Shown piece by piece: positions 43,607 to 46,713 of a stretch of 64,000 bases of DNA. Position 1 is the first letter of the stretch; every line of letters starts with the position of its first letter. Source of the DNA: Oscillospiraceae bacterium NTUH-002-81 (GTDB lineage Bacteria; Bacillota; Clostridia; Lachnospirales; Lachnospiraceae); contig CP136052.1 in assembly GCA_032620915.1 (NCBI GenBank), positions 1,650,501 through 1,714,500 on the forward strand, given 5' to 3'. A model generated the notes under the pieces. That model saw nothing but the letters and a program-made list of their open reading frames with translations. It did no database searches and was not told where the DNA came from. The translations under genes and the position numbers were made by a program.

Positions 43607-43652
43607 GAAAAAACGGCAGCCGGAAAACGCCGTGGACGGTTTCCAGCTGCCG
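43607..43652 (-). terminator. Terminator after the cotJC 3' fragment
   Basis: On the minus strand CGGCAGCTGGAAA pairs with TTTCCGGCTGCCG, then six or seven T. It closes the cotJ operon beyond the insertion, which supports the 3' fragment being functional when joined. Confidence 0.8.
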
Positions 43653-43666
43653 CTTTGCTGTGCAGG

Positions 43667-43816
43667 CTATCGGGTATTCCTGCCACAGGGATTGTCGCAG
43701 GCGCTGCCAGCATGATTTCCGCCTCCGTTTGCGGCGGAGGAGATGGAGCAGTCGAAGGACGGATTGAAGGCATAGAAGTTCCGGGCGTTCAGATCATCCT
43801 GGAGCATCCGAAGCGC
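43667..43816 (-). pseudogene. cotJC: cotJC 3' fragment (C-terminal 49 codons), separated by insertion
   Basis: Read on the minus strand from GCG at 43816, this encodes LRMLQDDLNARNFYAFNPSF and a Gly/Cys/Asn-rich tail ending CGRNTR, then TAG at 43667. ARNFYAFNPSFD is the conserved C-terminal motif of CotJC spore-coat proteins, and the fragment has no start of its own. The codon-175 side of cotJC is found 1.9 kb away at 45760. Joining the two at the shared GGAAGC gives RFGEALRMLQDDL without a frame change and a 224-residue protein. Listed as a broken gene, but probably restored by excision of the intervening DNA. Confidence 0.88.
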
Positions 43817-44807
43817 TTCCTCGAACCGGGCAGGATGGTGTATCACGGAAACAGCAGGAGGTTAATGGCTGTCTGGGACACCGTGGATTCTGGCAGGCCA
43901 GCCAGAGATCGGCAGGGACAATCCCTTCATGCGGGGCAAGCACCAGAAAACCTTTCCGGGCGTTTTTCTGCCCGGGGGCGAGGGCAGAGGCGGAGGAACG
44001 CGCTTCCTGTTTATCCCGGTAGAAGTAGCAGCCGTTGGTGCCGATGAAGTCCTCCGGCGGATTACAGATAACGGTACCCTGATTTTGGAAAAAGTGAAGG
44101 ACAGAAGGATCAGCTTTCACGTAAATGGGGTTGCGCAGCAGCTCGCTGAGGCGGGCGGTATTCCAGGGGTGTCCCCGGTGCTTGGCGATGTGATGATTTT
44201 CCAGATAGCGGACCACATCGGCAAGGGAGCGGTCGGGATCTGCGTACAGGCGATAGACCAGCAGGATCTGCTGTGCCTCTTCGGGGACAGGCACGTAGCA
44301 GGAGGTATGGATGCCCTGAAGCACCGTGTCTGCCAGCTGAAAACCGTAGGGGATCCGGCCGCCCATGTACAGACCCAGGCGGCAGCGGGCATAATAGGCG
44401 TCGGACACCCGTTTCTGGATGGTTTCCCGTTCCAGCTGGGCAAACACGATGCAGATGTGGAGCATGGCCCGGCCGATGGGGGTGGAGGTATCGAATTTTT
44501 CCGTGGAGGAGACGAATTCCACATGAAAGGTCTGAAACTGTTCCATCATGTTGGCAAAATCGAGAATGGAGCGGCTGATCCGATCCAGTTTGTAGACGAT
44601 GACCCGGCGGATTTTTCCGGCCTGCACATCGTTCATCATCTGCGTAAATCCCGGACGGTGGGTGTCTTTTCCGGAAAACCCCCGATCGGCGTATGTAAGA
44701 AAGGGCGCTCCGTGGGTTTCGTACTGGCAGTAGGCCAGCTGGCTTTCCACGGAAATGCTGTCCTGTTTTTCTATGGACTGGCGGGCGTACAACGCATCAT
44801 ATAACAT
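43794..44807 (-). CDS. Serine recombinase of the cotJC element
   Basis: A 337-residue site-specific recombinase. The resolvase domain (about 1-150) has the nucleophile Ser11 in LYARQS, YADRGFSGKDTHRPGF, VIVYKLDRISRS and ERETIQKRVSDAYY. A Recombinase domain follows (RIPYGFQLADTV, about 175-290). It stops just after IVPADLWLACQ, where large serine recombinases usually continue 150-250 residues with a zinc ribbon and coiled coil; these are missing. The frame crosses the attachment core and ends 21 bases outside the element, so excision would change its last residues. The ATG at 44807 is chosen; a TTG at 44813 is better spaced from AAAGGCGG. The longer upstream frame would overlap the divergent gene. 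Confidence 0.88.
   Translation of the reverse strand: MLYDALYARQSIEKQDSISVESQLAYCQYETHGAPFLTYADRGFSGKDTHRPGFTQMMNDVQAGKIRRVIVYKLDRISRSILDFANMMEQFQTFHVEFVSSTEKFDTSTPIGRAMLHICIVFAQLERETIQKRVSDAYYARCRLGLYMGGRIPYGFQLADTVLQGIHTSCYVPVPEEAQQILLVYRLYADPDRSLADVVRYLENHHIAKHRGHPWNTARLSELLRNPIYVKADPSVLHFFQNQGTVICNPPEDFIGTNGCYFYRDKQEARSSASALAPGQKNARKGFLVLAPHEGIVPADLWLACQNPRCPRQPLTSCCFRDTPSCPVRGSASDAPG
43815..43820 (-). other. Attachment-site core, distal end (attR)
   Basis: On the coding strand TTCGA-GGAAGC-GCTTCGG. The core GGAAGC is shared with the other end. The five bases before it (TTCGA) match the other end (TTCGG) at four positions. Confidence 0.75.
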
Positions 44808-44841
44808 GGGCAAGGGAAGCCGCCTTTCAATGTTTTCTCTA

Positions 44842-44850
44842 TACCATATG
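44842..44850 (-). promoter_or_regulatory. Possible mother-cell sigma factor -10 box of the recombinase
   Basis: CATATGGTA on the minus strand fits the sigma-K -10 consensus CATAnnnTA and partly the sigma-E one. No clear -35 is seen. The position, about 35 bases before the start codon, is right. Weak evidence taken alone. Confidence 0.35.
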
Positions 44851-44874
44851 CGGACGGTTTGATAAAAAATGCGG

Positions 44875-44903
44875 TTGAGGGAAGCGCGATGGCAGAGTAT
44901 AAT
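44875..44903 (+). promoter_or_regulatory. Sigma-A promoter of the MBL gene inside the element
   Basis: TTGAGG (44875-44880), 17-base spacer, TATAAT (44898-44903). It sets transcription near 44910, which excludes the upstream TTG and ATG starts of the MBL frame. Confidence 0.7.
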
Positions 44904-44927
44904 AGCTGGAGAATATGCGGAGAAAGG

Positions 44928-45743
44928 ATGGAGAAAACTTTTATGGATATGATCATGCTGGGAACCGGAAATGCTATGGTGACAAACTGCTATAACACCT
45001 GTTTTGTGCTGCGGGACGAGAAGGGATATTTTATGGTGGATGCGGGCGGCGGCAACACGGTGCTGCATCAGCTGGAGCAGGCCGGGATTGACTGGCAGGA
45101 CATTCATACGATGTTCGTCACCCACAAGCATATCGACCATCTGCTGGGTGTGATCTGGATGATGCGCCGGATCTGTCAGGGGATGAATCAGGGAAAATAT
45201 GCGGGCGAGGCTGTGATCTACGCCCATGAAGAGGTCATCGGCCTTTTGCGGGGTATGGCCGGTGCGCTGCTGCAGAAAAAACAGGCCGCCTGCATTGACA
45301 ACCGGCTGTATCTTGTTGCAGTGGAAAACGGGGAGAGCCGGGAAATCCTTGGAAAGCAGGTGACATTTTTTGATATCCAGTCCACCAAGGCGAAGCAGTT
45401 TGGGTTTTGTATGGAGCTGGGCAATGGAGAAAAGCTCACCTGCTGCGGGGATGAGCCGTACAACGAATGTGAACGGAAATACGCGGAAAACAGCACCTGG
45501 CTGCTGCATGAGGCGTTCTGCCTGTACAAAGAGGCAGATATTTTTTCACCCTATGAAAAACACCATTCTACGGTGAAGGATGCCTGCCAGCTGGCGGAGC
45601 AGCTGCATGTGAAAAATCTGGTGCTGTACCACACGGAGGATAAAAATATAGCGAACCGGAAAGCGTTATATATGGAAGAAGGACGGCAGTATTATACCGG
45701 CCATCTGTACGTACCGGACGACCTGGAGGTGCTGCATCTGTAG
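44928..45743 (+). CDS. MBL-fold metallo-hydrolase carried by the cotJC element
   Basis: A 271-residue metallo-beta-lactamase-fold protein of the RNase Z-like type. The metal motif is MFVTHKHIDHLLGV (HxHxDH, with Lys inside), with DAGGG before it and later CCGDEPYNECE, LLHEAF and LYHTED supplying further ligands. There is no signal peptide. The start is the ATG at 44928, behind GGAG and downstream of the promoter at 44875; earlier starts precede the transcript. Its stop is 16 bases from the element end and overlaps the converging read-through frame of cotJC. It is cargo of the element; a role in excision or sporulation is unknown. Confidence 0.85.
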   Translation: MEKTFMDMIMLGTGNAMVTNCYNTCFVLRDEKGYFMVDAGGGNTVLHQLEQAGIDWQDIHTMFVTHKHIDHLLGVIWMMRRICQGMNQGKYAGEAVIYAHEEVIGLLRGMAGALLQKKQAACIDNRLYLVAVENGESREILGKQVTFFDIQSTKAKQFGFCMELGNGEKLTCCGDEPYNECERKYAENSTWLLHEAFCLYKEADIFSPYEKHHSTVKDACQLAEQLHVKNLVLYHTEDKNIANRKALYMEEGRQYYTGHLYVPDDLEVLHL

Positions 45744-46285
45744 GGATCTTCCCGTTTTGCTTCCCCGAAGCGTTGGAAGTGTACGATTTCCCGTTCCCGC
45801 AGGAACCGGATGGGGTCTGCCACCTCGGGATCCTTCACCAGTCGGAGGATATTATCGTAGGTGGAGCGGGCTTTCTGCTCCGCAGCCATGTCTTCCATCA
45901 GATCGGTGATGGGATCGCCCTTGGACTGGAATTCGCAGGCATTGAAGGGAACGCCGCCGGCGGCCTGGGGCCACAGAGCTGTGGTATGATCCACATAATA
46001 TTTCTCAAAGCCCGAGGACATGACCTCCTCCGGTGTGATGCCTTTGGTCAGCTGGTAGACGATGGCGCCGATCATCTCGAGATGGCCCAGTTCTTCCGTG
46101 CCGATATCGTTTAATACTCCGGCAATTTTTCGGGTAGGAGCTGTATATTTCTGGGACAGATATCGCATGGAAGCAGCCAGTTCTCCGTCAGGACCGCCGA
46201 ACTGGCTGAGGATCACCTGTGCGATCTTTGGATTGGGCTTTGTGATTTTTACCGGGTATTGCAGTCGTTTTTCATAATTAAACAT
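45692..46285 (-). CDS. cotJC: Spore coat protein CotJC, 5' part, interrupted at codon 176
   Basis: CotJC belongs to the manganese catalase family and is a spore-coat component. Residues 1-175 are normal: NYEKRLQYPVKITKPNPK at the start, GGPDGELAASMRYLSQKY, the metal ligands in GTEELGHLEMIGAIVYQL and AAEQKARSTYDNIL, and REREIVHFQRFGEA. After the GGAAGC core the frame runs 22 residues into the inserted element (KREDPYRCSTSR and on) to an accidental stop, overlapping the MBL gene. The proper C-terminus lies at 43667-43816. As it stands the protein is 197 residues with a foreign tail; after excision it would be 224. It abuts cotJB. Confidence 0.92.
   Translation of the reverse strand: MFNYEKRLQYPVKITKPNPKIAQVILSQFGGPDGELAASMRYLSQKYTAPTRKIAGVLNDIGTEELGHLEMIGAIVYQLTKGITPEEVMSSGFEKYYVDHTTALWPQAAGGVPFNACEFQSKGDPITDLMEDMAAEQKARSTYDNILRLVKDPEVADPIRFLREREIVHFQRFGEAKREDPYRCSTSRSSGTYRWPV
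45759..45764 (-). other. Attachment-site core, proximal end (attL)
   Basis: On the coding strand CGCTTCGG-GGAAGC-AAAACGGG. The cotJC frame is normal up to this core (codon 176) and unrelated after it. Confidence 0.75.
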
Positions 46286-46570
46286 TTAACATCCTCCTTC
46301 CCAGGGAAGCGGGGATGTGGCCCATTCCCAGCTTCTGGCGCAGGCGGGTACCGTGTCGATGGTCAGCGGATAGTATGCCTGCGCAAAGTCCTCCAGTGCC
46401 TGTCTGCGAAGCTCGGAATAAGTGTTGAAATATTCCAGCGCCGCCGGATCCTGGGGGTGCGTATCGAGAAACAGTTTGATATCGTCAACGGCAAAGCTTA
46501 CCATGTTGATCCAGGAGAGCAGGGAAGCTCTGGAGCGTCCAGTTCCATTTCTGTCAGGGATTCCATTCAC
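46286..46570 (-). CDS. cotJB: Spore coat protein CotJB
   Basis: A 94-residue protein of the CotJB family. The conserved part is RASLLSWINMVSFAVDDIKL followed by LDTHPQDPAALEYFNTY and QALEDFAQAYYPLTID. It is the middle gene of the cotJABC operon, whose products form part of the mother-cell-made coat. The start is taken as GTG at 46570, eight bases after GGGGG; a GTG at 46579 would lack room for a ribosome site. The stop directly touches the cotJC ATG. Confidence 0.85.
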   Translation of the reverse strand: MNGIPDRNGTGRSRASLLSWINMVSFAVDDIKLFLDTHPQDPAALEYFNTYSELRRQALEDFAQAYYPLTIDTVPACARSWEWATSPLPWEGGC

Positions 46571-46713
46571 ATCTGACACCCCCGTTTCCCAAGGAAAGGC
46601 ATATTCAATTCCGGAAAAATCGTTCCGATCTGCAATGCCTTTTCCAGATCATAGACAGAACCGAAATGCTGCCAGGGAACGTATGCCATGGCAATCGGTG
46701 TATATTTTTGCAT
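46567..46713 (-). CDS. cotJA: Spore coat associated protein CotJA
   Basis: A 48-residue protein, too short for ordinary gene calling. It carries the CotJA motifs AYVPWQHFGSVYDLEKALQIG and FPELNMPFLGKRG. CotJA is needed with CotJC for assembly in the coat. The ATG at 46713 lies behind AAGGAG. Its stop overlaps the cotJB start, so the three cotJ genes are coupled. It is shorter than the Bacillus protein at the N-terminus but keeps the conserved core. Confidence 0.85.
   Translation of the reverse strand: MQKYTPIAMAYVPWQHFGSVYDLEKALQIGTIFPELNMPFLGKRGCQM

Follow-up and report, generated by a model that had tools for sequence, protein, structure and literature searches.

The literature on spore formers describes programmed reassembly of a handful of genes. 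The sigK skin elements encode a large serine recombinase (SpoIVCA in Bacillus subtilis; CD1231 in Clostridioides difficile, with CD1234 as its recombination directionality factor, RDF) and lie within a mother-cell gene whose frame is restored by excision at a short core (PMC5025042); the same source calls skin elements an exception in the clostridia. The gin element in gerE of Bacillus cereus ATCC10987, with the recombinase GirC and the RDF GirX, is an intervening element of a sporulation gene that is not a prophage (PMC5595907), and vfbin (spoVFB), vrin (spoVR), SPbeta (spsM) and yin (yabG) are prophage-like elements that likewise interrupt sporulation genes (PMC4191935, PMC10747680, PMC5025042). 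Here we consider the coat gene cotJC in a stretch of 64,000 nucleotides from Oscillospiraceae bacterium NTUH-002-81 (contig CP136052.1, positions 1,650,501 to 1,714,500; hereafter the window), in which the gene is interrupted by 1,944 bp of foreign DNA. We propose, with a probability of roughly 0.7, that the interruption is a small skin-type gene-intervening element that restores the intact gene on excision, and that the copy in the window is a streamlined one.

Like the sigK skin, the element interrupts a mother-cell sporulation gene within its coding region, has a short direct repeat at its ends at which joining regains the reading frame, and carries its own serine recombinase, albeit a C-terminally truncated one. 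The differences are that it lies in a gene for a coat enzyme and not for a sigma factor, that it comprises 1.9 kb and two genes where the C. difficile skin has 19 genes (PMC5025042), and that the C-terminal domains are missing from its recombinase, for which the search gave no RDF candidate. It shares with gin the absence of a prophage character, although gin spans 28.6 kb and has three recombinases and an RDF (PMC5595907), and it differs from the prophage-like elements, which also occupy other genes. A literature search, with most subscription papers and preprints outside its reach, returned no described element in cotJC, and the word cotJC is absent from the main text of PMC5595907 and PMC10747680. 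The window element belongs to a large and apparently undescribed set of cotJC-intervening elements, among which it is unusually reduced.

The 5' piece of cotJC (45759..46285, reverse strand, codons 1-176) matches PF05067 with E 7.4e-50 over residues 1-176. Its frame runs from 46285 to 45692, giving 197 aa, and its end lies inside element sequence; it departs from the family consensus after ...HFQRFGEA, past the GGAAGC at 45764-45759. The 3' piece (43667..43820, reverse strand, codons 174-224 plus stop) begins (LRMLQDDLNARNFYAFNPSFDCSISS...) after a second GGAAGC at 43820-43815 and has its stop at 43669-43667. The break is at codon 174-176, with 1,944 bp between the two GGAAGC copies, and joining the pieces at that hexamer yields an in-frame CotJC of 224 residues. 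Comparison of the open reading frame (ORF) with the consensus and the computed join both bear out the first-pass annotation, which had described a gene normal to about codon 175, foreign DNA from GGAAGC onward and a 224-residue product on joining; its description of the C-terminal fragment as start-less has to be amended, as a GTG start is present at 43846, within element sequence. The genome of the window (G000) is a single contig of 3,622,424 bp with one cotJC N-terminal match only. The same genus comprises four genomes including this one, and cotJC is uninterrupted in two of the others (G001 and G002) and split in the third (G003). That intact relatives might fail to align over the junction had been named as the outcome that would count against a rearranged gene; the intact cotJC of G001 and G002 aligns over residues 1-197, spanning the junction, and 20 of the 23 residues of the join from 175 to 197 are identical to each (counted by eye).

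The joined gene is also found naturally. A protein search with the joined sequence returned P0121, a protein of 224 aa that is identical at 222 of 224 positions, exact across the predicted junction, and different from the window join only at residues 3 and 7. The cluster of P0121 has 5 members, and that of P0134, an interrupted form, has 79. A further protein, P0137, is a cotJC piece 94% identical to that of the window, that runs on into the same left attachment site (attL) and, in antisense orientation, into the end of the same metallo-beta-lactamase (MBL) gene. Together with P0002, a recombinase 80% identical to that of the window, it probably derives from one sister species carrying the same insertion. 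If the insertion is older than the species, P0121 implies an excision event that was precise, whether somatic or in the germ line; because the probable sister species carries the insertion as well, we take this to be the probable origin of P0121. We considered an assembly artefact as the source of P0121 and rejected it by reasoning rather than computation, as a 6-bp shared repeat should not collapse 1,944 bp.

The excisable interval extends over 43821..45764 (equivalently 43815-45758). At attL, the core GGAAGC (45759..45764, reverse strand) holds a proposed crossover dinucleotide, GA at 45763-45762, which is the symmetry centre of the reconstructed attP, and the element-side arm (AAAACGGGAAGATCC; 45744..45758, reverse strand) resembles the arm in relatives at the same codons of cotJC in other genomes (site D, codons 172-176; see below). 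The same core stands at attR (43815..43820, reverse strand), adjoined by the element-side arm CCATCCTGCCCGGTTCGA (43821..43838, reverse strand). Both arms are alike among site-D loci and flank the core in inverted orientation, and in eight of nine site-D elements, that of the window included, the inverted symmetry of the reconstructed attP is strongest about the same centre (L115 differs). The GGAAGC core given in the first-pass annotation is thus present at both ends but is short of the full repeat, which is nearly 11 bp (TTCG.GGAAGC, 10/11). There are two sizeable genes in the element, one for the recombinase and one for an MBL-fold protein that takes up the other half and was not in the first-pass description, and family searches of these two ORFs gave no phage structural or replication genes.

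The recombinase (43794..44807, reverse strand, 337 aa) retains the catalytic and recombinase domains (PF00239 and PF07508) and is without the zinc ribbon (PF13408) and the coiled coil, a truncation that went unnoticed when the interval was first described as carrying a serine recombinase. Because both of these parts are absent, we class it as a truncated descendant and not as a complete large serine recombinase. The eight full-length relatives aligned are 499-517 aa long, and the match of the window enzyme ends at about residue 318; its final 12 codons extend over attR and into cotJC, read in a different frame. P0002 has the same 337-residue form and the same ending. The two proteins are identical in 127 of 142 alignment columns of the catalytic domain, 30 of 34 of the linker, 96 of 133 of the recombinase domain and 6 of 18 of the tail, with in-frame gaps only, a domain-wise pattern that would be expected if the catalytic and recombinase domains were under purifying selection. 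The predicted structure is poor (mean predicted local distance difference test score, pLDDT, 66; predicted template modelling score, pTM, 0.48), with low scores in places even within the catalytic domain and the lowest ones from residue 309 to the end, and carries little weight. Another protein, P0021, is a recombinase of 496 aa whose first approximately 84 residues, and not the remainder, are near-identical to the window enzyme; judged by its sequence it is a recombinant or chimeric assembly.

Close relatives of the recombinase are 59-69% identical and were found at eight loci in named genomes, and 15 of 397 same-family (Lachnospiraceae) genomes, G000 included, have a match at E <= 1e-112. 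Pooling these and removing three duplicates leaves 20 genomes, in 17 of which the C-terminus of cotJC adjoins the recombinase. In G126 the cotJC frame is lost at the same codon as in the window, and the C-terminal piece was not found there. A search of viral_contigs with a full-length recombinase of the site-D type returned only three loci, at 27%. The skin-type reading of the cotJC interruption put forward in the first-pass annotation draws support from the aligned relatives, P0121, the insertion in the probable sister species, the 17 of 20 genomes and the inverted arms.

The interruption of cotJC is far from confined to this site. CotJC was matched in 244 of the 397 same-family genomes, of which 109 were re-examined, chiefly those with weak best matches, and G000 and G003 were added from the same-genus search. 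Since the re-examination covered mainly genomes with weak matches, the counts of split genes are lower bounds. By a strict rule that calls for complementary pieces, at least 64 of the 397 genomes have an interrupted cotJC, at four recurrent sites: A (codon ~28-33, 18 genomes), B (60-65, 30 genomes), C (134-135, 13 genomes) and D (172-176, 11 genomes). Eight of the 64 genomes have two split sites. Genes split twice were seen at L089/L090, L096, L101, L105, L106 and L114, the second junction in L096, L101, L105 and L114 being read from match positions only and partly on another contig. In 40 genomes, a total of 43 junctions lie on one contig. Five further genomes (G158, G286, G312, G321 and G390) fall outside the strict rule, yet their joins are open, with cores of 3 bp in L124 and 4 bp in L125.

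We examined 40 DNA stretches and L008, which gave 36 loci holding both cotJC pieces, and a large serine recombinase lies within 35 of the 36 intervals, or 28 of 29 when seven site-D loci that had also been found by the recombinase search are left out. The exception, L122 in G267 (codon 79), is a 1.7-kb insert without a serine recombinase in a divergent copy of cotJC, perhaps of the intron or insertion-sequence type; an Rfam search of it gave no family. Joining the pieces gave open frames of 185-240 aa at 35 of 40 junctions, two of which enter a second element and two of which begin inside a first one, while the remaining five belong to multiply split genes or abut a contig edge and could not be read by the joining script. 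The openness of the joins is partly by construction, because the script selects the shared run that gives the best joined protein, and we therefore place more reliance on a register test over 39 junctions (G267 excluded), in which the longest exact run averaged 8.18 in the frame-keeping register, compared with 2.31-3.41 in the 24 others; the frame-keeping register was best or tied at 33 junctions. A chance reading frame was rejected on this basis. As a control gene we took adk in 52 genomes chosen for weak cotJC matches, 34 of them with strictly split cotJC; 51 of these genomes carry a full-length adk (the exception, G023, is 67% complete and has a weak adk match only), and none has it in two complementary pieces. 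We likewise rejected the idea that every split stems from a contig break, given the 43 one-contig junctions and the adk result.

Site B is represented within the genus by G003, where cotJC is split at codon 65 (L008, 4424-7384) by an element with a different full-length recombinase, the core GAGT and inverted ends GTCGGCCTGCC/GGCAGGCCGAC. No natural joined allele was found for this element, the best match being 91% identical in a protein database clustered at 90%; an identical joined allele could be hidden by that clustering. An order-wide draw gave a CotJC match in 235 of 392 genomes. Among the matches listed, 37 of 56 genomes, picked for weak or multiple matches, have at least one junction (25 have one, 10 have two and two have three), a screening-level result from match positions in which paralogues are possibly mixed; it suggests that in the order's other families a single cotJC has up to three split sites. 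We built a tree of 64 recombinases, 39 of them taken from cotJC loci and the other 25 from G000. In it, the eight site-D rows form one clade (99/98) and the six site-C rows another (100/100), while the ten site-A rows form one clade that includes one G000 row and the 15 site-B rows fall into two clades (8 and 7). From these clades, at least five recombinase lineages target cotJC, and two of these do so within site B, at neighbouring codons. A wider picture, which we offer tentatively and at somewhat less than even odds, is that cotJC of the order is a recurrent, multi-slot target of integration that the mother cell reassembles, with at least five lineages, at least four sites and as many as three elements in a single gene, and that the element in the window is the end point of a domestication, its naturally truncated recombinase working as an excision enzyme without zinc ribbon, coiled coil or RDF.

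Several skin-type elements encode an RDF, which is accessory rather than defining. The full-length site-D-type relatives have a conserved small ORF (~50-80 aa) directly upstream of the recombinase (for example in L106 and L113), which from its position and size we regard as a candidate RDF. Full-length relatives from 16 distinct genomes were tested with a hidden Markov model (HMM) of the small ORF, and 15 of these genomes had a match, at 17 loci in all, a count that includes the training set and two genomes (L044 and L077) in which the locus is not in cotJC. The window element had no match at E <= 10, although an unrelated RDF would escape the model. Family searches of the small ORF gave nothing convincing and no name for it. 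In phiC31, the RDF gp3 contacts the integrase via the zinc domain (PMC5814800), and an LI integrase without its coiled coil, the part that controls directionality, recombined attL with attR in the absence of an RDF at 2.2% (PMC10754689). The window protein is a natural counterpart of that laboratory mutant, except that it is without the zinc ribbon as well as the coiled coil. The LI mutant is reported to keep its zinc domain.

The sequence of events that we envisage begins with a serine recombinase element that would once have inserted at codon 174-176 of cotJC. Recombination of attL with attR at the GA dinucleotide of their common GGAAGC, as the symmetry of the sites suggests, would release a 1,944-bp circle and leave an intact CotJC frame, in keeping with the computed join and P0121. 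By analogy with the sigK skin, excision may take place in the mother cell upon expression of cotJ, the spore line retaining the element, and would be carried out during sporulation by the element's own enzyme; the mother-cell timing of other intervening elements is the basis of this analogy (PMC4191935, PMC5025042). The window copy would have been streamlined by loss of the RDF candidate, the zinc ribbon and the coiled coil, and loss of these domains could lift the block that makes an RDF necessary, so that the 337-aa enzyme may excise without one.

A number of observations weigh against this proposal. The small-ORF HMM had no match in L105 (G351), although this is a full-length site-D element. 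The phiC31 integrase is dead when its coiled coil is deleted (PMC10754689), and since loss of the zinc ribbon is more drastic, the 337-aa enzyme could be inactive as well. No convincing SigE or SigK promoter was found upstream of the window recombinase (SigE-like P ~0.53, SigK-like P ~0.04, uncorrected). The window attP has 10 of 18 symmetric positions at the GG^AAGC centre against 8 of 18 at the next, a weak preference and a score that is joint lowest among the nine site-D elements; the frame-keeping register of the window junction has an exact run of 6 against at most 5 elsewhere, so that the core repeat is weak on its own. In L044 (Anaerocolumna sp. AGMB13025) and G383 a close relative of the recombinase is present without cotJC nearby; G383 is devoid of any cotJC match, and an attR-like arm there adjoins other DNA. 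P0121 could stem from a strain with germ-line loss of the element, and a circle-junction form of the recombinase was not found among the 120 matches listed. An enzyme that excises in one direction only would be expected to have lost the RDF candidate together with the zinc ribbon and coiled coil, but a dead enzyme could show the same losses; we favour the former because of P0121 and the domain-wise constraint on the recombinase. In a scan ahead of the recombinases, SigE/SigK promoter scores were mostly on par with those of shuffles.

Excision might also work in trans, through another full-length recombinase of the host. G000 holds 26 PF07508 matches, the window recombinase counted, and two full-length relatives in this genome (53 and 57% identity) form the sister group of the site-D clade. 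These two genes are in mobile-element surroundings (ORFs judged by eye), and a recombinase that was dispensable in cis should not show domain-wise constraint; we consider excision in trans unlikely. Integrases often use conserved genes as targets. An ordinary mobile element without developmental control, for which cotJC is merely a permissive target and P0121 an element-free strain, would agree with that habit and with the uninterrupted cotJC of the two same-genus genomes, but it sits poorly with at least five recombinase lineages inside the cotJC coding region at frame-keeping junctions and with adk being intact in 51 genomes of a set of 52 of which 34 have split cotJC, and the insertion shared with the probable sister species means that the empty allele would need precise loss; we think this explanation distinctly doubtful. 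Least probable is a decayed insertion, in which the element no longer excises and cotJC is a pseudogene or is used as its truncated 197-aa product, for despite the lack of the RDF candidate and of some 170 residues at the C-terminus of the recombinase, and despite the chance that loss of cotJC is tolerated (spore yield in C. difficile is unaffected when CotCB or CotD is disrupted, CotJC relatives that are putative manganese catalases at the spore surface; PMC9542656), P0121 is the exact joined gene, the downstream piece of cotJC, which has no normal start, is still open and agrees with intact relatives, and the truncated recombinase is open in two proteins that are most alike in the catalytic part.

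Gene rearrangement of this kind may be routine in the Lachnospiraceae, since at least 64 of 397 genomes have a split cotJC, some at two sites, and cotJC may often be rebuilt only in spore-making cells. Annotation may have taken such genes for broken. The convergence of independent elements on mother-cell genes becomes a testable question, and the truncated recombinase offers a natural experiment on the parts of serine integrases that enforce directionality.

The sigK gene of G000 also appears to be split, at C1:1365066-1390936 (L136, L137), with pieces about 25 kb apart, according to matches under the curated cut-off that were inspected by eye and for which the exact core was not found. A serine recombinase, L030, lies directly before the 3' piece, and in the recombinase tree it is, on a long branch, the next lineage beyond the group that the site-D clade forms with its sister pair.

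Upstream of cotJC on the reverse strand are cotJB (46286..46579; Pfam PF12652, E 1.5e-26) and an ORF of 48 aa (46567..46713), presumably the cotJA-like first gene of the cotJ operon, a label that we take from its position in the operon. Downstream, a hairpin followed by a T run at 43607..43652 (reverse strand), recognized by eye, is the likely terminator of the operon; the scan lists only a smaller hairpin at 43618-43602. Elsewhere in the window, the protein at 39306-40826 matches the GerXA germination model with E 6e-51, under the curated cut-off. The cargo gene of the element (44931..45743, forward strand) encodes a metallo-beta-lactamase-fold hydrolase (PF12706, E 1.3e-13, above the cut-off) that is weakly RNase Z-like, the RNase Z models matching far under their cut-offs, and a sigma70-like promoter match (10/12) stands ahead of it at 44875-44903. 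This gene lies within the element in the window, but a homologue at 47% identity (L043 3367-4176, in G204) lies outside, upstream of cotJB.

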